IMG/VR virus record: IMGVR_UViG_3300006916_010552
Location: 1-29,642 of that record
Length of the DNA stretch: 29,642 nucleotides
Direction: 5' to 3' (one strand)
Source of the DNA: a virus
Part shown: piece after piece, positions 8,024-20,261 of the stretch
Position numbering within the stretch: the stretch's first letter is position 1
Layout: each line of letters begins with the position of its first letter
Program-made: the position numbers and the translations under genes
The notes under the pieces: model-generated
Databases searched by the model: none
Seen by the model: the letters and a program-made list of their open reading frames with translations, nothing else
Told to the model about the DNA's origin: nothing

Positions 8024-8356
8024 ATGAAATATTTACTACTGGCAACCGCATTACTGGTTGCCTGTGATGTATCCGCCAGTCCTTACATTGAGATTAAATC
8101 TGAAATAGAGTATAAGGACTTTAAAATAAAAGACCAAGTGAATCATACACGGTTTGGATATGAGAAAAAATCGCTTGTACGAGGGAGAAGTATTTACTTT
8201 GAAGCTGGTCATATGACAGGCGGTTCTTCGTGGGAAGGAGGATACAAAACAAGACTATCAGATACTCTTATAATTAAGGGTAAGCTTGAAGGAAAAAGAG
8301 AACGGGGGATGGACTCTAAAACTAAATTAGAGACGGAGATTCGATATACATGGTAA
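8024..8356 (+). CDS. Exported small beta-rich protein (110 aa)
   Basis: The first 19 residues (MKYLLLATALLVACDVSASP) form a Sec signal peptide with probable cleavage after VSA. The mature part of about 91 residues alternates charged and hydrophobic residues in strand-like pairs and ends in IRYTW, an aromatic end typical of outer-membrane beta-barrels. It is too short for a full eight-strand barrel, so an oligomeric or periplasmic beta protein is equally likely. AAGGA lies 9 bases upstream. It is the first of six consecutive genes with signal peptides. A cysteine in the signal region (VACDVS) could suggest a lipoprotein, but Asp follows it and the lipobox is poor. Confidence 0.6.
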   Translation: MKYLLLATALLVACDVSASPYIEIKSEIEYKDFKIKDQVNHTRFGYEKKSLVRGRSIYFEAGHMTGGSSWEGGYKTRLSDTLIIKGKLEGKRERGMDSKTKLETEIRYTW

Positions 8357-8910
8357 GACTTGTATTAATTTTGGCTACATTTGTAGCTTTTTCAGCTACA
8401 GCAGAGGAGTTAGTTGGTGATGATGTTATCCGAACAGATTCTACAACCACTAGTACGGTAACAACACAGTCAGATACTACGACTACTTTAAAGTCGCCTC
8501 CAGCTTCAGCTATTACTCCTACTATTAATACTTCTAATACTGATCTCTGTACTTTTGGGGTAGCTGGAGCTATACAAACGCAGATCTTGGGTATTTCTAC
8601 TGGTACTCAAGTTACTGATGAAAACTGCGAAAGATTAAAGTTATCAAAGACTTTGTATGATATGGGAATGAAAGTAGCGGCTGTGTCTACACTTTGTCAG
8701 GATAGACGAGTATTTGATGCTATGATGATGGCAGGCACTCCCTGCCCTTACGAAGGAATGATAGGCGCAGATGCTCGAGCAGCTTGGGAAACAAATACAG
8801 AATTACAACCAGACTCAGAAAAGCAGAAAGAAAAGGGATTAAGTAATGGATCTAAGACACTACTTGGTAGCGCCGGCGTTGCTAGCTTACTCGTTCTCCT
8901 CCTACTCTGA
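8350..8910 (+). CDS. Exported cysteine-paired protein with C-terminal membrane tail
   Basis: A signal peptide covers residues 1-18 (LVLILATFVAFSATAEE). A Thr/Ser-rich linker follows (about residues 28-62), then a compact domain with five Cys (DLCTFGVAGA, DENCERLKLS, STLCQDRRVF, GTPCPYEG) and a last hydrophobic stretch of about 15 residues ending LLVLLLL. The even number of spaced cysteines in the exported part suggests disulfides in the periplasm, although one may be free. I recall similar domains in marine phage genomes without assigned role. It overlaps the previous gene by 7 bases and the next by 65 bases, a large overlap for this genome. Confidence 0.6.
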   Translation: MVRLVLILATFVAFSATAEELVGDDVIRTDSTTTSTVTTQSDTTTTLKSPPASAITPTINTSNTDLCTFGVAGAIQTQILGISTGTQVTDENCERLKLSKTLYDMGMKVAAVSTLCQDRRVFDAMMMAGTPCPYEGMIGADARAAWETNTELQPDSEKQKEKGLSNGSKTLLGSAGVASLLVLLLL

Positions 8911-9730
8911 GAGCTTTGATACAAGCCCTCAGTACGGAACTACACAGAACGCTGCGCAGTTTGGTTATAACTGGGTAATGCAAAATGTATTGCCCCAACA
9001 AACAGGGTTAAAAGTTAATGGAGTAGTTTACCAGTATACTACTATAAAAGAAACTGATGACAATTTATTGGTTCATGTACAAAATGAAAATGCAAGAGGG
9101 CCTGGCTACATTTTTAGATCAACAGATGATTGGTCAGGCTTACCAGGAAATACTATTAATAGAGTAGTTCCTGTAAATTCTATTGATATCTCTTATTGGG
9201 GTGAGGGGAGTATTGAAACAGAAGGTGTAGGGAGTGTTACAGATGCTGAAGTCTATTATTCGTATCAGTATACTCCTTGCGAAGATCCACAAAGCGATTC
9301 GCGCTGCCCAGGTTATATAGATTACACGGCAGTTATTACAGAGGAGAGTTTACAACTAGAAAATAGCGAACAATATATTCAAAATGAACTAGATAGAAAA
9401 GCCAACCTGAAAGCTCAAAAAGACGAGGAGGAAAGAGCCGCCAGGGAAAAAGTTAAAAAAGACGCAGCAGAAGATGTGAAGGAAAATTTAGAGGAGTTAC
9501 TCGGGTCTATAAATACAGACCTTCTTAATACTCAATCTAAAGTAATTCACGATGCGCTTATGGCAACAAATTCTTTACCGCAAACATATTTTGCGGTATT
9601 AAAAGGCGGCCAGTATAACGATGCAGTAGTGCTAAAGGATACTAAGCTGCCTGATGCAAAGAAAGGTGCAAAGGTTGGGTTAGCCCAACAAGTATTGCAC
9701 GAAGAAATGGTTCAATCTCAATGGGATTAA
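8846..9730 (+). CDS. Exported protein with coiled-coil region (294 aa)
   Basis: Residues 1-21 (MDLRHYLVAPALLAYSFSSYSES) look like a signal peptide. Residues about 25-165 are a beta-rich domain with a Cys pair (TPCEDPQSDSRCPGY). Residues about 170-220 are a charged coiled coil (ELDRKANLKAQKDEEERAAR), and the C terminus is mixed helix and strand. GGGA lies 9 bases upstream of the ATG. The start sits inside the C-terminal membrane tail of the previous gene, so both must be decoded from the same 65 bases. I do not recognise the family. Periplasmic location is inferred from the signal peptide. Confidence 0.6.
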   Translation: MDLRHYLVAPALLAYSFSSYSESFDTSPQYGTTQNAAQFGYNWVMQNVLPQQTGLKVNGVVYQYTTIKETDDNLLVHVQNENARGPGYIFRSTDDWSGLPGNTINRVVPVNSIDISYWGEGSIETEGVGSVTDAEVYYSYQYTPCEDPQSDSRCPGYIDYTAVITEESLQLENSEQYIQNELDRKANLKAQKDEEERAAREKVKKDAAEDVKENLEELLGSINTDLLNTQSKVIHDALMATNSLPQTYFAVLKGGQYNDAVVLKDTKLPDAKKGAKVGLAQQVLHEEMVQSQWD

Positions 9731-9751
9731 TCCATGAAACGGGGAGAAAAC

Positions 9752-10249
9752 ATGAAAAACTTGTTGTTATTTGCAGGTCTAGTTGCATTTGCAATTGGAG
9801 CTCAGGCAGAGGATATGGAGGTAGTAGGTAACGTAGAATCTAAGTGTGTAGTAGTGCCGGATACCGCAGGTGTTTTTGGCAACCCTACTCCAGATACACT
9901 AAGTTCCGACCCTTCTGACGGTGGAGTAGATCCTGTGGTTAGATACGACGTTATTCAAGCAAGCTATTATAAGGCGAAAATTACTCATCCAAATTCGTTT
10001 TCTGAAGCTCCCGCTTTGAGTGATGTTGTAAACTGGTCAGGTGACACTGCTACTTCTCAGGTATCTGATTCATCTATGTCCGGCTATGATGCAGCTAAGA
10101 TTGAGTACGACAACGTAACTGAATTTTCGCTTACTGTTGCCGGAAGTACCTGGTTCAAGACTGAGACTTCTGCAGAGTATGGCTATGGCAAGGCCTTTCC
10201 TGCCGGCGTATATAGAGCTGTTGTGACGGCTGAATGTATCGCTATTTAA
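9752..10249 (+). CDS. Exported pilin-like (spore coat U / Csu-type) protein
   Basis: The start at 9752 (MKNLLLFAGL) gives a clean signal peptide ending in AQA; an upstream ATG at 9734 would only add six residues. The mature protein of about 146 residues is beta-rich, with one Cys near its N terminus (ESKCVVVP) and one four residues from the end (TAECIAI). This two-cysteine, strand-rich plan resembles secreted pilin subunits of the Csu/spore coat U type, but the similarity is one of pattern and could be misleading. GGGGAGA lies 6 bases upstream. The next gene looks like half of a pilus chaperone, which makes the pair interesting. Confidence 0.5.
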   Translation: MKNLLLFAGLVAFAIGAQAEDMEVVGNVESKCVVVPDTAGVFGNPTPDTLSSDPSDGGVDPVVRYDVIQASYYKAKITHPNSFSEAPALSDVVNWSGDTATSQVSDSSMSGYDAAKIEYDNVTEFSLTVAGSTWFKTETSAEYGYGKAFPAGVYRAVVTAECIAI

Positions 10250-10611
10250 TTTTATTGCTTTTGCTAACCTCTGGGCACTCTGTGAGTGCCCATGAGTTTA
10301 CTCCTACATACCCTGTGTTAAAACAGTCATATGTTCAAGGAGTTCTGTATACTACAATGTCTCTATTTAATTTACGTCAAGACGTAGAGTATTATGAAGT
10401 AGAGGTATTTGACAATGATTGGAATAAAGTTCCTTTTGCAATAAAAAATAAGATAATTAAAACGGATTATCTGCAAAAGAAAAAGATAGAAGTTTATATT
10501 AGGGAGAGAGACAAAGATAAAGCAGTATATGTCTGCTCTAAATCAAAATTGATATTAGAAGGAGGAGGTAAAACTGCGGTAGAGTCAAGAATTTGTTCAA
10601 AGTTTAAATGA
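10234..10611 (+). CDS. Exported PapD-like single-domain protein
   Basis: A signal peptide (MYRYLILLLLLTSGHSVSA) is followed by EFTPTYPVLK, then SLFNLRQDVEYYEVEVFD, NKVPFAIKNK and KKKIEVYIRE. This order (Pro-rich first strand, N-x-R in strand two, aromatic strand three, VPF turn, basic then IR strand) resembles the N-terminal immunoglobulin-like domain of periplasmic pilus chaperones. At 125 residues only one domain fits, whereas chaperones have two (about 230). Two cysteines near the end (VYVCSKSK, SRICSKFK) could form a disulfide. It overlaps the pilin-like gene by 16 bases. I recall this sequence type in marine phages as a conserved hypothetical; chaperone function is inferred weakly. Confidence 0.5.
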   Translation: MYRYLILLLLLTSGHSVSAHEFTPTYPVLKQSYVQGVLYTTMSLFNLRQDVEYYEVEVFDNDWNKVPFAIKNKIIKTDYLQKKKIEVYIRERDKDKAVYVCSKSKLILEGGGKTAVESRICSKFK

Positions 10612-11036
10612 GATTATTAATACTATTATTAAGCGTGGTTTCTTTTAATGCTTTAGCAGCTTCCAGCTCTCTAAACTTAAATCTCCCAGCAACTCCAGGC
10701 TCATATGCTTCTGATAGAATCAGGGCAAATAATGTAGAGTGTTCTATGGCTATAGGGGCATCTACAAATTTAGAGTTTGGAGTAGTAGGAGTTCTTAATC
10801 AGAATGGGCCTTATATTAGTAATGTAGGCGTTATTCCAGAAGATTATAATAGTAACGATTTAGTAAAAGATGTGGGGGTGTATGCAAAAATTACTATACC
10901 GTTAAATGCTCCAAAAACAAGATTAGACTGCAATGAACTTTATAGATTAGAGCTTGAAATTAAAAGAATGGAGGTTCAAAAACTCAAGCAAGAAATAGCC
11001 AACCTCAAAGCCCTACAGTTCGAGGGAGACGACTAA
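10608..11036 (+). CDS. Exported protein with C-terminal coiled coil (142 aa)
   Basis: A signal peptide (MRLLILLLSVVSFNALA) precedes a Ser/Asn-rich segment and a beta-type domain with NNVECSMAIG and GVYAKITIPL. The last 35 residues (LYRLELEIKRMEVQKLKQEI) form a strong coiled coil, and a second Cys stands just before it (RLDCNEL). Together these fit a periplasmic protein that oligomerises by its tail. It begins in an ATGA overlap with the PapD-like gene and ends directly before the membrane coiled-coil gene, whose long cytoplasmic or periplasmic coil might be a partner. I recall related proteins in marine phages but no function. Confidence 0.6.
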   Translation: MRLLILLLSVVSFNALAASSSLNLNLPATPGSYASDRIRANNVECSMAIGASTNLEFGVVGVLNQNGPYISNVGVIPEDYNSNDLVKDVGVYAKITIPLNAPKTRLDCNELYRLELEIKRMEVQKLKQEIANLKALQFEGDD

Positions 11037-11495
11037 ATGGCCGAAGTTGAATTTGGAGGTATGACATTTAAAGGCGGGAAGATGATGATTCTTCTTACAG
11101 CCTTATCCACTCTAGGTGGAGCAACATGGGGTGTCTTTGAGTTTTATAAAGACTACATGGATATGAAAGAAATTATTGCAAATATTGATACTGACGAAAT
11201 CGCAGCTAGAAATGCAGTAATAGAAACAAAACTTGATGAAGCTATAGATTATTCACGAAGTATAAAAAATGATTTACGGGATGACTTTAATCGTATGGAA
11301 AAGAATGTTGATCGTGTAGAGGACATGGTTCGTGAGAACGATACTAAAGTTGCAGAAATGATCGATAAAGCGACCGAAAGGTTTGACACTAAAAGAGATA
11401 GTTTGCAAAGCGATAATAGAGTCGCAATGGAAGCATTAGAGGATAGATTAAATAAAAAGATTCAAACAGTTTTAGATAATCCTTTGGCAAACTAG
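11037..11495 (+). CDS. Membrane-anchored coiled-coil protein (152 aa)
   Basis: The N terminus (EFGGMTFKGGKMM) precedes one hydrophobic span (ILLTALSTLGGATWGVFEFY, about residues 17-36). About 110 residues of highly charged helix follow, with heptad-like spacing (AIDYSRSIKNDLRDDFNRME onward). The membrane-plus-long-coil layout resembles spanin-like or holin-associated proteins, but no spanin partner lipoprotein is seen. GAGGGAGA lies 6 bases upstream and the ATG directly follows the previous stop. It closes the exported block, and its coil could bind the coil of the preceding exported protein. Similar proteins occur in marine phages; role unknown. Confidence 0.6.
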   Translation: MAEVEFGGMTFKGGKMMILLTALSTLGGATWGVFEFYKDYMDMKEIIANIDTDEIAARNAVIETKLDEAIDYSRSIKNDLRDDFNRMEKNVDRVEDMVRENDTKVAEMIDKATERFDTKRDSLQSDNRVAMEALEDRLNKKIQTVLDNPLAN

Positions 11496-12426: not shown

Positions 12427-13059
12427 ATGTACGAAGAACAACAAAATATAATTATTGTTGATAATATTTGGTCAAATGTGGATAAAGTAAGAGAATATGC
12501 TCTTACTCTTACATATGACACTGAAAATTTTGGGAATCATTTTTGGAGGACTCCTGCTCAATTAGATATGGGAATGATTCCTGTATTAGAGAAATATGTT
12601 GGCTCTACTATTCTTAGGGATCATTTTTGGGAGGTTCCCCCAGACCCTACTAAGCATCACCATATGAATATGACTTTTTACAAAGTTATAAATGAGAACG
12701 GATATAATGCCTGGGCTAATCATATTCACCATGACGGAGCAGATTGGACAGGTATTATATACCTTGATCCAGATATGGGCCCTGAAGTAGGAACTCAGTT
12801 ATGGAAACATAAGCTTAGTGGAGATGAATTTGCATTTGGACAAACTAATCATGTGAAAAAGAATGATGGAGGGTATGAAAGGTTTTGGGATAAAAGATGT
12901 GAGTCTCCCGAAGAATTTATACCTACAGATTATTTAGCTTATAAATATAATAGGATGGTTCTGTTTAAGGGAGGAATGTTTCATTCAGCTGTATATCCTC
13001 CAACTTTACCAGATCAATCAAGATTAAGTATGTTTTTATACTTTAACGTGGAGTATTAA
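12427..13059 (+). CDS. 2OG-Fe(II) oxygenase-like protein (210 aa)
   Basis: 2-oxoglutarate/Fe(II) oxygenases hydroxylate proteins, nucleic acids or small molecules. The iron ligands appear as His101-x-Asp103 (NHIHHDGADWTG) and His186 (LFKGGMFHSA), and Arg199 (SRLSMFLYF) is in place to bind 2-oxoglutarate. The strand GIIYLDPD and the turn LFKGGMFH match this double-stranded beta-helix fold. The first 80 residues are a helical cap. AAGGT lies 8 bases upstream. A second, different oxygenase lies at 14368. The substrate is unknown; virion or host proteins are possibilities. Confidence 0.75.
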   Translation: MYEEQQNIIIVDNIWSNVDKVREYALTLTYDTENFGNHFWRTPAQLDMGMIPVLEKYVGSTILRDHFWEVPPDPTKHHHMNMTFYKVINENGYNAWANHIHHDGADWTGIIYLDPDMGPEVGTQLWKHKLSGDEFAFGQTNHVKKNDGGYERFWDKRCESPEEFIPTDYLAYKYNRMVLFKGGMFHSAVYPPTLPDQSRLSMFLYFNVEY

Positions 13060-13224: not shown

Positions 13225-13554
13225 ATGAGCGATCATACAGTAGATTCAGACGTAGCAAAAGAGATTGATGCAAATGGTGATGGGCACATCTCAAAAGAAG
13301 AATGGGATATGCACATGGAGTTCAAGCGCAAAGAGCTTGAAGATAAAGACGCACAGCGTGATGCAATCCGTAAGATGGCTTGGTTTTCATTGATCGGTCT
13401 TTTGGTATATCCTTTTGGTATTTTTTGCACAGCGTTATTTGGATTAGATAAAGGAGCGGAGTTAATTGCTGATATTGCTCCTACATACTTTGCATCTATT
13501 GCAGTATTAGTATCCGCATTCTTTGCTGCTGATGCAGTAGGTAAAAACAAGTGA
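13225..13554 (+). CDS. EF-hand membrane protein, candidate calcium-binding holin
   Basis: Residues 15-26 are a canonical EF-hand loop (DANGDGHISKEE) with Asp15, Asn17, Asp19, Ser23 and Glu26 at the calcium-binding positions. A charged helix follows, then two hydrophobic spans at about residues 51-72 and 83-103, giving a two-span topology with a soluble N-terminal calcium site. It stands directly before the cell wall hydrolase in a GTGA overlap, the usual place of a holin. Together with the 54-aa membrane protein it completes a lysis cassette. A single EF-hand normally needs a partner, so dimers are likely. Holin function is inferred from position and topology. Confidence 0.7.
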   Translation: MSDHTVDSDVAKEIDANGDGHISKEEWDMHMEFKRKELEDKDAQRDAIRKMAWFSLIGLLVYPFGIFCTALFGLDKGAELIADIAPTYFASIAVLVSAFFAADAVGKNK

Positions 13555-13997
13555 AATTAGTTTTATTATTTTTGCTACTACTGCCGCTCTCGGCAGTAGC
13601 TAGCAAAGATATAGAATGTTTAGCTACTAATATTTATTTTGAAAGTAGAGGAGAATCCTTGGCGGGGCAAGTGGCTGTAGCCCATGTTACAATGAATCGA
13701 GTATTCTCCTCTAAATTTCCGAATAGTATATGTGAGGTTGTATATCAAGCTAAGTACGATCAAATGCTCCCTTTAAAGAATCAGTGTCAATTTTCTTGGT
13801 ATTGCGACGGGCTAAAAGAAATTATAAAAGATAAAAAAGCTTATGAAAAAGCTAAAAATGTAGCTTTTTATGTCTTACACGGGGGACTAGATATAACAGA
13901 CGGAGCTTTGTATTATCATTCCCATACTGTAAGTCCTGATTGGAATAAAGAAATGAATCACACGGTTACTATAGGTAACCATATATTTTATAAATGA
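13551..13997 (+). CDS. Exported SleB-type cell wall hydrolase (endolysin)
   Basis: The family (Hydrolase_2) cleaves peptidoglycan. A signal peptide (MKLVLLFLLLLPLSAVA) precedes the catalytic domain, which begins IECLATNIYFESRGESLAGQ, with Glu31 the likely catalytic acid. Conserved segments VAHVTMNRV, CQFSWYCDG, the DITDGALYYHSHTVSPDW block and the terminal GNHIFY all match. With 148 residues it is the catalytic domain alone. The GTG start overlaps the stop of the EF-hand gene (GTGA). The signal peptide means export through the host Sec system, so lysis would depend on release or activation by a holin, unlike endolysins that need a hole to cross the membrane. Confidence 0.9.
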   Translation: MKLVLLFLLLLPLSAVASKDIECLATNIYFESRGESLAGQVAVAHVTMNRVFSSKFPNSICEVVYQAKYDQMLPLKNQCQFSWYCDGLKEIIKDKKAYEKAKNVAFYVLHGGLDITDGALYYHSHTVSPDWNKEMNHTVTIGNHIFYK

Positions 13998-14371
13998 GCT
14001 ATTCAGAACAAGTTCTCGATCATTATAATAATCCTCGTAATGTCGGAAAACTAAACAAAGAGGATGAAGATGTTGGCACAGGCATGGTGGGAGCTCCTGC
14101 GTGTGGTGATGTAATGCAATTACAAATAAAGGTAAATGATAATGGAATTATCGAAGATGCTAGGTTTAAAACCTACGGATGCGGAAGTGCTATTGCTTCT
14201 TCCTCCCTCCTTACCGAATGGGTTAAAGGTCGTAGTCTTGACGAAGCTGGGAGTATTAAAAACACCGACATCGCCGAGGAACTCGCCCTCCCGCCCGTCA
14301 AAATCCACTGTAGTGTGCTTGCAGAAGATGCGATTAAAGCTGCGATCGAAGACTACAGGAGCAAACATTGA
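13994..14371 (+). CDS. iscU: IscU iron-sulfur cluster scaffold protein
   Basis: IscU assembles iron-sulfur clusters with cysteine desulfurase IscS and passes them on with HscA/HscB. All functional residues sit at the positions of Escherichia coli IscU: Cys37 and Asp39 in APACGDV, Cys63 in YGCGSAIASSS, the HscA-binding motif LPPVK at 99-103, and His105-Cys106. At 125 residues it is full length, so it is probably active with host IscS, none of the other isc genes being present. It starts in an ATGA overlap with the hydrolase and ends in a TTGA overlap with an oxygenase. The middle (about 14200-14330) is richer in GC than its neighbours, a possible sign of transfer. It is a clear auxiliary metabolic gene. 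Confidence 0.95.
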   Translation: MSYSEQVLDHYNNPRNVGKLNKEDEDVGTGMVGAPACGDVMQLQIKVNDNGIIEDARFKTYGCGSAIASSSLLTEWVKGRSLDEAGSIKNTDIAEELALPPVKIHCSVLAEDAIKAAIEDYRSKH

Positions 14372-14931
14372 TCCCTTATAAAGTATACGATAACTTTTTT
14401 TCACAAGAAGAACTAACATCAGTATGGCAAGAATTTGATAAAAATGTTTTATCAAAAGTAACTACTGACACAGGTACTGCAACTCACGAGGGACAGCCTT
14501 TAAAAGATAACTGGGGTTGCTGGCTTGGACATGTTTTTCCTGATAATAGTACTAAAATTCCTCAATCCCCCTATACTAATATTATAGAAAATATCGAAGC
14601 AGAGGAGGAATGGTTCTGGAGATATTTTTTAAAAACCAAGGCAAGTGCTTTATTATCTTATTACGGTGATGGGGACTCTTATGGAAAGCATTTTGATCAA
14701 ACCCTAATAACTTGTTTAACTTGGTTAAATATTTACCCAGAGAAAACTTTTACAGGAGGAGATCTTATTCTGGAGGGCGGAAAAGACATCGTAGAGTACA
14801 AACATAATAGAACTGTTATTTTCCCCTCTATGATGTTTCATGAAGTGACTCCCGTGAAACTTCTAGACCCAGAGAAAGAATACTCAGGAAGATTTTGCTT
14901 AACTTTATTTTTTATGCAGGACGAAACATGA
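14368..14931 (+). CDS. Prolyl-4-hydroxylase-like 2OG-Fe(II) oxygenase
   Basis: The iron ligands are His108-x-Asp110 (GKHFDQ) and His158 (MMFHEV), and Arg175 (SGRFCLTLFF) is the likely 2-oxoglutarate anchor. The core runs LSYYGDGDSYGKHFD, LTWLNIYP, FTGGDLILEGG and TVIFPSMMFHEV, the standard layout of the P4H-type oxygenase fold. The start is TTG in a four-base TTGA overlap with iscU, with AGGAG 8 bases upstream. The gene overlaps the large terminase start (ATGA). Its close coupling with iscU suggests a shared iron theme, though these enzymes use mononuclear iron and not clusters. The substrate is unknown. Confidence 0.82.
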   Translation: MIPYKVYDNFFSQEELTSVWQEFDKNVLSKVTTDTGTATHEGQPLKDNWGCWLGHVFPDNSTKIPQSPYTNIIENIEAEEEWFWRYFLKTKASALLSYYGDGDSYGKHFDQTLITCLTWLNIYPEKTFTGGDLILEGGKDIVEYKHNRTVIFPSMMFHEVTPVKLLDPEKEYSGRFCLTLFFMQDET

Positions 14932-16229
14932 TAGAAATAAGTAGAGCTGATATTATCAGCGAATATATTGTAAATTCTCAGGACCCTAGACGGTTTATAA
15001 AATTACCAATAGAACCCTACTTAGAGTTATTACAAGTTACCCCTTTAGAGTCTCAAATGGCATTAATAAATGCTATAAACAATCCTAAGTACAGGTTTGT
15101 ATCTGCGGCTCTATCAAGGCGTCAAGGAAAAACTTATATTGCAAATATTGTAGGGCAATTAGTGTCTTTAATTCCTAATTCGCATATTTTAATTATGTCT
15201 CCGAACTATTCCTTGTCTCAAATATCTTTTGATCTTCAGAGAAATCTGATCAAGCATTTTGATCTAGAAGTAACTAAGGATAATGCGAAAGATAAAGTTA
15301 TTGAATTATCTAACGGTTCTACAGTTAGAATGGGTTCAGTAAACCAAGTAGACTCAGTAGTTGGTAGAAGCTACGATCTTATTATTTTTGATGAAGCTGC
15401 ACTAACAGATGGTAGAGACGCTTTTAATGTGGCTCTTAGACCTACACTTGATAAAGATAATTCAAAAGCTCTTTTCATTTCTACCCCACGAGGTAAGACT
15501 AACTGGTTTGCAGAGTTTTGGAATAGAGGCTTCTCAGAAGAGTTTCCTGAATGGGCCTCTATTAGAGCAACTTATAAAAGTAATCCTAGAATGTCGGAAA
15601 ACGATATTAAAGAAGCTAGAAAGTCTATGAGTGAAGCTGAATTTAGACAAGAGTATGAAGCAGACTTTAATACTTATGAAGGGCAGATTTGGTCATTTGA
15701 CGCATTAGAGTGTGTCGCTAATTTAGAAGACCTAGACGTATCTAGAATGGATGTATTCGCAGGATTAGACGTAGGTTACAGGGATCCTACTGCTTTTTGC
15801 GTAATAGGATATGATTGGGATGAAGAAAAATACTATGTATTAGATGAGTACTTAAACTCAGAAAGGACCACAGAGCAACATGCTACAGAGATACAGAAGC
15901 TTATGGATAAGTGGGATATTGACTATATTTTTATTGACTCTGCTGCTCAGCAGACACGATTTGACTTTGCACAAAATTTCGACATTTCTACCACAAACGC
16001 TAAAAAATCCGTACTTGATGGAATTGCACATGTTGCAGCCATTGTAGATAACAATAAACTTATTGTAGATCAGAGATGTAATGAAACTCTGTCCTGTTTA
16101 GATCAATATCAGTGGGACCCTAATCCTAATCTTGCTAGAGAGAAGCCTAGACATAACTATGCGTCTCACATGGCCGATGCTTTACGTTATGCATTATATA
16201 GTTTTGTTACTACTTCAACGGGATTTTGA
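14928..16229 (+). CDS. Terminase large subunit
   Basis: TerL is the ATP-driven motor and nuclease that packages DNA into proheads. The ATPase has a Walker A-like SRRQGKT at about residues 63-69, Walker B LIIFDEAA near residue 150, and the coupling motif ISTPRGKT. The nuclease half has GLDVGYRDPTAF near residue 280, FIDSAAQQ and HMADALRYAL with the acidic metal ligands. At 433 residues it is of normal size. The ATG at 14928 in an ATGA overlap is preferred over a start at 14895 inside the oxygenase gene. The small subunit lies about 8.8 kb upstream, an unusual separation. Confidence 0.95.
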   Translation: MIEISRADIISEYIVNSQDPRRFIKLPIEPYLELLQVTPLESQMALINAINNPKYRFVSAALSRRQGKTYIANIVGQLVSLIPNSHILIMSPNYSLSQISFDLQRNLIKHFDLEVTKDNAKDKVIELSNGSTVRMGSVNQVDSVVGRSYDLIIFDEAALTDGRDAFNVALRPTLDKDNSKALFISTPRGKTNWFAEFWNRGFSEEFPEWASIRATYKSNPRMSENDIKEARKSMSEAEFRQEYEADFNTYEGQIWSFDALECVANLEDLDVSRMDVFAGLDVGYRDPTAFCVIGYDWDEEKYYVLDEYLNSERTTEQHATEIQKLMDKWDIDYIFIDSAAQQTRFDFAQNFDISTTNAKKSVLDGIAHVAAIVDNNKLIVDQRCNETLSCLDQYQWDPNPNLAREKPRHNYASHMADALRYALYSFVTTSTGF

Positions 16230-17871: not shown

Positions 17872-18202
17872 TGTTAGACAAAGAAAAACTGCAATAGAGC
17901 AAGTAGCTAGAGATATTAAAGACTATAGTTTGGAAAGAGGAATTACTTATCCTGCATATTTACAAATTGTAGCACAACCTCTTCTTCCTTCAAGCCTTAG
18001 AAAAAGTTTTAAAAGTTGGAGACGTATGATCTCAGCAGTAGAAAAAGCGCACCCAGATGTATGGGATCATAGTATACAGGCTGCGCCGGAACCAGTAGCG
18101 ACTCCAGAACCTACTCCAGAACCTGTAATTGCAGAAGATCCTCTGGAAGCATTGAAGAAGTCTAGTTCTACTGGAACTGAAGTTGAGGAAAGCGATGAAT
18201 AA
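17864..18202 (+). CDS. Small protein between portal and protease (112 aa)
   Basis: The protein has a basic helical N-terminal half (SVRQRKTAIEQVARDIKDYS, later SFKSWRRMISAVEKA) and a Pro/Glu-rich C terminus (APEPVATPEPTPEPVIAEDP) that is probably disordered. I do not recognise the family. Its place between portal and the protease-capsid gene, and overlaps of 8 bases at both ends, mark it as part of the head operon. It might be a minor capsid or assembly factor, but no motif supports that. Pro-Glu repeats can be linkers or spacers. Confidence 0.6.
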   Translation: MSSVRQRKTAIEQVARDIKDYSLERGITYPAYLQIVAQPLLPSSLRKSFKSWRRMISAVEKAHPDVWDHSIQAAPEPVATPEPTPEPVIAEDPLEALKKSSSTGTEVEESDE

Positions 18203-20261
18203 GATTTTTAATCTTACATCTACCTTCAAAGCATTAAATGAAGATGATGACGGAGTTCACATTTGTGGTATGGCAAGTACCTCAGATTTTGACAGAGCAG
18301 GGGACAGTATTGAAGCATCTGCTTGGACAAAAGGTGGGCTAAATAATTTTGAAAAGAATCCAATTATTCTTTTCAATCATAATTATGACAAACCTATTGG
18401 CAGAGCCACAGGTTTAAAAGTTACTGAAAATGGATTAGAATTGAAAGCAAAAATTTCAAAGTCTGCTCCAGATCATGTAGCTCAATTAGTTAAAGAAGGT
18501 ATCCTTGGAGCTTTTTCCGTTGGTTTTCGAGTCAAGGATGCTGATTACATGGAGGAAACTGACGGATTAAAGATAAAGGATGCTGAATTGTTTGAAGTAT
18601 CAGTTGTTTCGGTACCTTGCAACCAAGCAGCTACTTTTTCTCTGGCGAAATCTTTTGACTCTATGGAAGAGTACGAAGAATTCAAAAAAACTTTCAAAAG
18701 TGTCGATCTAGCCGGTCAGTCTCTGGCTAAGGATGAAGATTCATCGGTAGCTAGTCACACACCGGACGGAACCCAAGAGGTTCAAAAGGAGATCAAAATG
18801 TCGGAAGAGAATAAAACTCCCGAAATCGACTTGGCTGCATTTGCAAAGCAGGTGGCAGAAGAGACTGCTGCTAAGATTGCTATGCAACAGGCCGAGCAGA
18901 AAGCAGCCGCAGAAAAGGCTGCCGAAGAAGCAGAGGTTAAAGCTAAGGCTGAAGCCGAAGCAAAAGCTGCTCAAGAAGCAGAAGTTAAATCAGCAGTGGC
19001 TGTAGGTGTTGAGTCAGGCGCAGAGCGTTTGATGTCAGACATTGAATCTAAGCTGGCTGAAAAAGACGCAAAAATGGAAGAAGTAATTAAGCAATTTTCT
19101 GCTCAGCTTGCTGATAAGAATGATGAAATTACTAAGATGCGTGAAAGCAAGAGAGTTTTCTCTGCTGATCGCGCTTCTTCTTCAGAAGACCTTTCACCTT
19201 TCGCAAAGGATTTGATGTATGGTCATATTCTTGGTGTAATTACTAACAAAGGCTGGAACACGGCTTATGGTAAGAATATGCTTCAAAAAGCTGGTATCGA
19301 CTATCCCAACGATGGTGGTTCAGTAGTTGGTGCAGACCAAGAGTATCCTAACATTGCTACTACAGTATCATCAGCAATTGAAAAGGAAGTACTGAACGAG
19401 CTTCGCCTCGCTCAAGCATTCCGTCAAATTCAAATGCCCGCAAAGACGATGGTAATGCCTATCCAGACCGATACTAATCTGGCAACTTTCCAGAATAGCA
19501 CTCCTAAGGATGGTAATGGTAATCCTACTGCAGACTTGGAGAATCGTACTCAGGTAGCTGGAAATACTTATACTCCTGGTCAGGTAGTTCTGCAAGCTCA
19601 TCGCTTGCTGTCAGCTACTTACATGGATAACATCGTTGATGAAGAAGTACTTATCAACTTGATGCCTATGCTTGTAGAGTCTATTGCTCGTTCACACGCT
19701 CGCGCAGTAGATAACATGATTCTTAATGGTGAATCAGGCCTTGTACAAGGTCTTGAATTTCATGCTGTAGCTTCAGGAGGCGGTTCAGTAGACCTCGACG
19801 GTAATACTATCGCTACAGGCAACTCTGCTACATTGACTGCAGAATTGCTCCTCGACGCACGTAAGGGCATGGGTAAGTATGGTTTGAATCCTGCTGATGT
19901 ACTTTATGTAGTATCACAGAAGTATTACTATGATCTGATTGCAGATCCTGGTTTTGCTGATATTACTGATGTTGGTTCAAACATTGCTACCAAGATCACT
20001 GGTACTATTGGTGCTGTATATGGTAGCCCTGTTGTTATTTCTGATAACTTTGAATCAGATGCAGCAGGCGGTACAGTTGCATATGCAGTTGCTCCTCGCA
20101 ACTACGTTATCCCACGTCTCCGTGGTGTAATGGTAGAACAAGACTACGAAGTAGCTCGTCAGCGTCGAGTTATTGTAGGTTCTCAGAACCTTGGCTTTAA
20201 TGAGCTCGTAAATGGTACTACTAATAACGAACCTTGTGTTAAGGTTGTTACCACTGCGTAA
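18195..20261 (+). CDS. Prohead protease-scaffold-major capsid fusion (688 aa)
   Basis: Three parts are joined in one reading frame. Residues about 20-150 are an HK97-type (S78) prohead protease with His62 (LFNHNYDKPIG) and Ser108 (GAFSVGF) and a third acid near LFEVSVVSVPCN. Residues about 205-320 are a charged coiled coil rich in Ala, Glu and Lys, the scaffold-like delta domain. Residues from about 325 on are the HK97-fold capsid protein (PNIATTVSSAIEKEVLNELR, QMPAKTMVMPIQTD, LNPADVLYVVSQKYYYDLI). The protease should cleave at the coiled coil during maturation. The ATG at 18195 is used here; the upstream codon at 18183 is unlikely. An internal start at 18798 probably gives separate capsid protein. 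The terminator at 20277 ends the unit. Confidence 0.92.
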   Translation: MNKIFNLTSTFKALNEDDDGVHICGMASTSDFDRAGDSIEASAWTKGGLNNFEKNPIILFNHNYDKPIGRATGLKVTENGLELKAKISKSAPDHVAQLVKEGILGAFSVGFRVKDADYMEETDGLKIKDAELFEVSVVSVPCNQAATFSLAKSFDSMEEYEEFKKTFKSVDLAGQSLAKDEDSSVASHTPDGTQEVQKEIKMSEENKTPEIDLAAFAKQVAEETAAKIAMQQAEQKAAAEKAAEEAEVKAKAEAEAKAAQEAEVKSAVAVGVESGAERLMSDIESKLAEKDAKMEEVIKQFSAQLADKNDEITKMRESKRVFSADRASSSEDLSPFAKDLMYGHILGVITNKGWNTAYGKNMLQKAGIDYPNDGGSVVGADQEYPNIATTVSSAIEKEVLNELRLAQAFRQIQMPAKTMVMPIQTDTNLATFQNSTPKDGNGNPTADLENRTQVAGNTYTPGQVVLQAHRLLSATYMDNIVDEEVLINLMPMLVESIARSHARAVDNMILNGESGLVQGLEFHAVASGGGSVDLDGNTIATGNSATLTAELLLDARKGMGKYGLNPADVLYVVSQKYYYDLIADPGFADITDVGSNIATKITGTIGAVYGSPVVISDNFESDAAGGTVAYAVAPRNYVIPRLRGVMVEQDYEVARQRRVIVGSQNLGFNELVNGTTNNEPCVKVVTTA
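18786..18800 (+). promoter_or_regulatory. Internal ribosome binding site and start within the fusion gene
   Basis: AAGGAG (18786-18791) lies 6 bases before an in-frame ATG (18798), stronger than the site for the full gene. Translation from it would give 487 residues starting MSEENKTPEI, the scaffold plus capsid part without the protease. This would supply capsid subunits in the large excess needed over protease. Confidence 0.75.

Follow-up and report, generated by a model that had tools for sequence, protein, structure and literature searches.

Two described systems come closest to the gene set reported here. In chaperone-usher pili (FimC/FimA, PapD, FaeE/FaeG, CFA/I CfaB and CsuC/CsuA/B), the genes of a pilin-fold subunit and a PapD-fold chaperone lie next to each other. 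Among phages, the closest precedent is the curli, or type VIII secretion, operon carried by pelagiphages (PMC9599517, PMC9004378). Here, we analyzed a 29.6-kb virus record from IMG/VR (IMGVR_UViG_3300006916_010552, positions 1 to 29,642; hereafter the window), which contains late genes of a T5-like phage. Positions 8350-11495 of the window hold a conserved unit of six genes, CYS-BIG-PIL-PAP-CC6-MCC (the cassette), in which a subunit and a chaperone of these two predicted types are likewise encoded by adjacent genes. We put at about even the chance that this unit forms a single operon and that its products build, late in infection, a phage-made assembly in the periplasm that uses donor-strand chemistry and is tethered to the inner membrane. 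The genes of the block, with the number of loci found in the first scan described below where available, are:

8024-8356, plus strand: OMP, small exported beta-barrel-type protein (Pfam Phage_OMP, PF24653); optional neighbour of the unit
8350-8910, plus strand: CYS, first gene of the unit; signal peptide, four invariant Cys in one domain, poly-Leu C-terminal tail (85 loci)
8846-9730, plus strand: BIG, exported protein, conserved N-terminal domain with two invariant Cys, charged coiled-coil-like stretch (83 loci)
9752-10249, plus strand: PIL, predicted exported pilin-fold subunit, from an AlphaFold2 model and its PDB matches (77 loci)
10234-10611, plus strand: PAP, predicted exported one-domain PapD-type chaperone with two invariant Cys, from an AlphaFold2 model and alignment (76 loci)
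10608-11036, plus strand: CC6, exported protein, candidate donor-strand N-terminus and C-terminal coiled-coil-like helix, from alignment (73 loci)
11037-11495, plus strand: MCC, last gene of the unit; inner-membrane protein, long charged helix that is probably periplasmic, conserved NPL(A/S) end (74 loci, one of them in pelagiphage HTVC115P)

All seven open reading frames (ORFs) that the initial annotation had placed in this block are present, overlapping or abutting as it described. The overlaps amount to 7 nucleotides (nt) between OMP and CYS, 65 nt in a different frame between CYS and BIG, 16 nt between PIL and PAP, and 4 nt between PAP and CC6; CC6 and MCC abut with no gap. The likely start of PIL is at 9752, within a slightly longer ORF that opens at 9734. 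The signal peptide of BIG is coded out of frame within the end of CYS, over the hydrophobic tail of the latter, and this overlap is at least 62 nt in every one of the 83 BIG loci.

A search for conserved synteny, as the initial annotation had suggested, showed that the six-gene order is kept in about 150 IMG/VR loci, found by two partly overlapping scans. The first used CYS as query, and hidden Markov models were then built from its results; its loci nearly always show one order, and where the flanks permit, PAP follows PIL in 72 of 72 loci, CC6 follows PAP in 70 of 70, and PIL comes after CYS in 69 of 73. In the second, which used PIL as query and in which the best 80 of at least 573 relatives were analyzed (on contigs that are partly those of the first scan), CYS (74/74) and BIG (77/77) were found upstream of PIL, and PAP (76/76), CC6 (71/71) and MCC (56/56) downstream. 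Comparison of the window with five relatives gave non-synonymous values (pN) of 0.11-0.33 versus synonymous values (pS) of 0.68-0.94; the reading frames of the block are therefore real protein-coding genes under purifying selection. Searches by sequence alone assigned no function, since Pfam and PDB profile searches gave none and PHROGs gave unnamed families only. No description of the operon was found in the open-access literature, subscription papers lying outside the search. The gene at 8024 (OMP; PF24653, 35.4 bits versus a gathering cut-off of 27) was rejected as an operon member, because it seldom accompanies the cassette: 2 of 76 loci have it no more than 1 kb upstream of CYS, and 10 of 80 (the best 80 of at least 573 PIL relatives) have it downstream of MCC.

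Signal peptides were called by a simple home-made rule, which flags the window genes at 8024, 8350, 9752, 10234 and 10608. BIG (8846) is missed in the window, where an acidic residue lies near the N-terminus, but 71 of the 83 BIG homologues are flagged, together with 76 of 85 CYS, 75 of 77 PIL, 74 of 76 PAP and 66 of 73 CC6 members. Five other families of the same loci are flagged in 0/12, 0/43, 0/92, 0/64 and 1/57 cases. The rule also flags MCC in 58 of 74 members, the hydrophobic stretch of which resembles an uncleaved anchor. The earlier proposal of six neighbouring exported proteins thus stands as regards export, given these family rates; the boundaries of the set have shifted, as the conserved unit leaves out the gene at 8024 and takes in MCC, the membrane coiled-coil gene. 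A further exported protein, a secreted hydrolase at 13551, is encoded near the block. The number of invariant Cys residues is even in each exported protein of the unit (four in CYS and two each in BIG, PIL, PAP and CC6), as expected for an oxidising periplasm. CYS ends in about seven mostly Leu, uncharged residues, which are likely to form a membrane anchor, and MCC reads from its sequence as an N-terminal transmembrane segment followed by a long charged helix.

AlphaFold2 models were made for PIL and PAP, each as a single chain. The PIL model has a mean predicted local distance difference test (pLDDT) score of 91.8, and in the PDB it is closest to CFA/I CfaB (E 8e-4), a FimD-tip complex chain and the pilin domain of PapG, followed by FimG and CsuA/B, with template modelling (TM) scores of about 0.4. 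Against a library of viral folds, PIL had no strong match (best E 2.8e-3). For the PAP model (pLDDT 90.6), the first 18 PDB matches are all periplasmic pilus chaperones or their complexes (FaeE, PapD, SfaE, FimC, SafB and Caf1M), with a best E of 1e-4 and TM-scores of 0.53-0.60. PAP has 125 amino acids (aa) including the signal peptide, versus about 230-250 aa in the E. coli chaperones, and it stops directly after its last strand, whereas FimC-type chaperones continue into a second domain. PIL is thus predicted to be pilin-like and PAP to be the first domain of a PapD-type chaperone, in agreement with the pilin-like protein and the PapD-like single-domain protein of the initial annotation. The strongest argument that the fold resemblance is real comes from the pairing itself: neighbouring genes lead, each on its own evidence, to the two partners of a single system.

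The alignments also show conserved motifs. At the mature N-terminus of PIL (V/T-P-I-x-G-x-V-x-S-K-C), hydrophobic residues alternate and the Gly is nearly invariant; the C-terminus of PIL carries an invariant G-x-Y and Cys. E. coli pilins start similarly (FxGxVxxxxC), and hhalign aligned PIL with them at this N-terminal G-x-V...C motif with a probability of 57.6%. PAP members of the marine set have an invariant His at the predicted mature N-terminus (His-x-x-x-Pro-x-Tyr); one PAP profile was aligned by a pattern requiring this motif, and the motif is also seen in a separate alignment free of that filter. A metal site at this His was considered and discarded, no second invariant His having been found. 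CC6 members show an alternating mature N-terminus as well, S-L-N-L-N-L-P, in 57 distinct segments; as the aligning pattern itself demands alternating hydrophobic positions, this count is no independent test.

In the scheme that we infer for the assembly, which covers donor-strand exchange, its partners, and its location and purpose, CYS, BIG, PIL, PAP and CC6 would pass through Sec and become oxidised once in the periplasm. There, PAP would lend a strand to PIL, a pilin-fold subunit that is incomplete by itself, and so hold and protect it (donor-strand complementation); PIL could then be completed by the N-terminus of another PIL (I-x-G-x-V) or of CC6 (S-L-N-L-N-L-P). CC6, BIG, MCC through its N-terminal anchor, and CYS through its C-terminal hydrophobic tail may tether the assembly to the inner membrane. 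Its most likely effect, after late production, would be a change to the envelope around the time of lysis or of progeny release.

Whether such an assembly leaves the cell depends on an export pore. No match to the usher family PF00577 above cut-off was found in 48 carrier records, which are fragments (the control was positive), and the block of the window contains no usher-sized ORF. As no usher was detected, extrusion as a normal pilus is unlikely, and the assembly probably stays periplasmic or spans the envelope. The idea of an envelope structure, raised in general terms by the initial annotation, is supported; its extracellular version lacks an usher. A surface fibre could still form if PIL polymerised by donor-strand exchange and left through a host pore or an unrecognised phage pore, serving aggregation or adhesion as proposed for phage curli. 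The short donor-strand-type N-terminal extension of PIL, the optional phage outer-membrane barrel (OMP) near some cassettes and the precedent of phage-encoded curli (PMC9599517) would suit such a fibre; nevertheless, with no usher in the carriers or the window, a chaperone that lacks the second domain and a barrel absent from most loci, we consider it quite improbable.

The lineages of the carriers bear on both the spread and the timing of the unit. The terminase of the window (14895-16229) shares about 50% identity with its counterparts in T5-like Vibrio and enterobacterial phages, and terminases 78-81% identical to it occur in nine of 48 carrier contigs tested. In two long carriers without a window-type terminase (58.7 and 91.9 kb), there is a phrog_262 DNA polymerase that we take to be T4-type, and the 91.9-kb carrier additionally encodes a DnaB-like helicase. 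PIL is present in two of 27 records of terminase relatives, all of them fragments, and many such relatives are without the cassette. Because the carriers differ in lineage and many terminase relatives lack it, the cassette is an accessory element common to different phage lineages, T5-like and T4-like. Several unrelated lineages of marine bacterial viruses carry the same short envelope-export gene set, and the statement in the initial annotation that some of these families occur in marine phages proved correct. A bacterial origin of PIL was also considered and set aside: apart from two short contigs of metagenome-assembled genomes, a search of 84,980 bacterial and archaeal genomes with one search pattern found no cellular source.

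Expression timing is indicated by TATAAATA, the T4-type late promoter: of 78 non-redundant loci, 26 carry it upstream of CYS at a distance of at most 100 nt, whereas about 1.1 would be expected from the density of the motif in the same loci. It is absent upstream of BIG, PIL, CC6 and MCC and is found upstream of PAP in 3 of 69 loci; in the PIL-anchored set (the best of at least 573 relatives, near-identical contigs included), it precedes CYS in 47 of 77. This enrichment suggests that, in promoter-bearing carriers, the cassette is probably a late operon starting at CYS. Together, the conserved order, the overlaps and the single late promoter at the head of the unit bear out the earlier proposal that these proteins are made together.

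Late production also bears on receptor masking, which concerns the purpose of the assembly more than a different anatomy. The lipoprotein Llp of phage T5 masks its receptor, FhuA. By analogy, the assembly might hide or occupy the phage receptor late in infection, sparing progeny from adsorption to debris and blocking competitors. T5-like carriers, exported products and tail-fibre-type genes close by in several lineages fit this purpose, and the late timing suits protection of progeny. The same timing suits classical early exclusion of competitors poorly in T4-like carriers, six proteins are many for a mask, and no receptor is known; we judge masking unlikely.

Several results weigh against a donor-strand assembly. 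The structural matches of PIL are weak (TM about 0.4, with one match at E <0.001), and immunoglobulin-like folds are common. Comparison of PAP with E. coli FimC-type chaperones by hhalign gave a probability of 0.5%, and no Pfam pilin or chaperone model matches any PIL or PAP member; searches of the window with PF00345 and PF05229 were negative, the latter having been run with no positive control. Moreover, the predicted folds cover PIL and PAP only, as single chains, the donor strand of CC6 is a candidate motif, and the late-promoter evidence comes from T4-like carriers and not from the T5-like lineage of the window itself. In its favour, PIL and PAP are kept together in Vibrio phages: PIL and PAP of Vibrio phage pVp-1 each match 179 Vibrio phage records, with an identical host breakdown. 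More tentatively, we propose a new class of usher-less donor-strand assembly, that is, a mobile late operon common to T4-like and T5-like phages that would make a pilin-based envelope structure with a one-domain chaperone and its own membrane anchors. The earlier interpretation as a whole is partly supported.

Phages outside the marine contigs carry parts of the cassette. In pVp-1, PIL-PAP-CC6 correspond to gp77-79 and the remaining unit genes are absent; in Pelagibacter phage HTVC115P, CYS, BIG and MCC occur and PIL-PAP-CC6 are missing. CYS and MCC are also found in a spring-water podovirus. A relative of CC6 is present in Vibrio phages K251, K468a and vB_VhaS-tm and was not found among the annotated genes of D53. 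Because isolates carry halves, CYS-BIG-MCC in the pelagiphage and PIL-PAP(-CC6) in Vibrio phages, the full cassette looks like two modules joined. In the Vibrio phages, a small lipoprotein-like gene follows PIL-PAP(-CC6) (L002:12266-12424 in the pVp-1 locus, with relatives in L185, L186 and L187); its product starts with the alternating S-G-C-T-I-N-F-x-I-D-T-D-Y-A, and this start could be a further donor strand.

The surroundings of the Vibrio-phage module raise a virion-associated role, in which PIL-PAP-CC6 would mature or attach a virion fibre or decoration after lysis. Two conserved large structural-like genes directly precede PIL-PAP in all Vibrio lineages examined, and in K251 the module is flanked by the genes of the major head protein and the head-tail adaptor. 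However, neither of the two structural-like genes was identified next to the marine cassette, and the signal peptides route the products away from cytoplasmic virion assembly, which makes such a role very improbable in our view. In pVp-1, the two genes are gp75 and gp76 (L002:5973-11079), belonging to PHROGs 22875 and 10818, which have no known function.

Lysis genes also occur close to the unit and its relatives, and the proteins might aid lysis as a complex that spans the envelope and works with holin and endolysin to weaken or disrupt it, a many-part spanin analogue. Of 27 testable loci, 16 have lysis-type genes in their flanks (a raw count), holin and endolysin genes lie just downstream of PIL-PAP-CC6 in pVp-1 and Ceto, a lysozyme gene directly follows CYS and its neighbour in CRP-207, and MCC has an Rz-like layout. 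Against this, known spanins need no pilin-chaperone pair, the unit is without a conserved outer-membrane lipoprotein, and Rz/Rz1-like genes stand alongside the full cassette on four carriers (L085, L138, L112 and L118). Their coexistence led us to mark down a spanin as the whole explanation, and a helper role, too, seems unlikely.

Several neighbouring genes deserve mention. At 13225-13997 (plus strand), the secreted SleB-type cell-wall hydrolase is directly preceded by a small protein with an EF-hand and two predicted transmembrane stretches; the two are possibly a calcium-binding holin with its endolysin, and members of the EF-hand family occur in 64 of the loci. Three genes at 12427-13059, 13994-14371 and 14368-14931 (plus strand), judged from their sequences, encode two 2OG-Fe(II) (2-oxoglutarate) oxygenase-like proteins and an IscU/NifU-like iron-sulfur scaffold, the scaffold lying between the hydrolase and the second oxygenase. 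A 692-aa ORF at 18183-20261 (plus strand) seems to fuse a prohead protease with the major capsid protein; in a relative (G017), several ORFs are called across this region, and sequence errors may have caused the split. Neighbour clustering also revealed a membrane protein family of about 155 aa (L121:8739-9209, plus strand) inside or beside the cassette in 23 loci.

If the proposed donor-strand assembly is real, lytic phages carry a conserved, so far unnamed machine for host-envelope assembly that is frequent among marine viral contigs, and subunit and chaperone can work together on the principle known from pili even without an usher and with a one-domain chaperone. The Vibrio-phage relatives have laboratory hosts, which makes this reading directly testable.

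Compared with known systems, the cassette shares single features with several. T5 Llp resembles it as an exported protein of T5-like phages, but is a single small lipoprotein, whereas the cassette comprises six proteins that are apparently late in T4-like carriers; a possible lipobox (LVAC) is present in the gene at 8024 only. Two-component spanins (Rz/Rz1) recall MCC, which would similarly be anchored in the inner membrane by its N-terminus and extend a charged helix into the periplasm, and the out-of-frame CYS/BIG overlap is a further likeness; as to their outer-membrane partner, no conserved lipobox was found in the unit, and lipoprotein-like genes follow PIL-PAP in Vibrio phages only. Phage curli are likewise a multi-gene export or surface-fibre operon of marine phages common to several phage lineages, but differ in their proteins (CsgG, CsgF and CsgA/B); no CsgG or CsgF Pfam match and no curli-protein homologue was detected among the block proteins. 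The chaperone-usher pathway is the closest principle, with further likeness in the disulfide-type Cys and the G-x-V N-terminal motif of the subunit. The cassette is nevertheless not a member of it, because its chaperone has one domain, no usher was found and no family-level score was obtained. Chaperone-usher pili have a two-domain chaperone and an usher, whereas the cassette encodes the first chaperone domain only, is borne by phages and brings four further exported or membrane proteins alongside.

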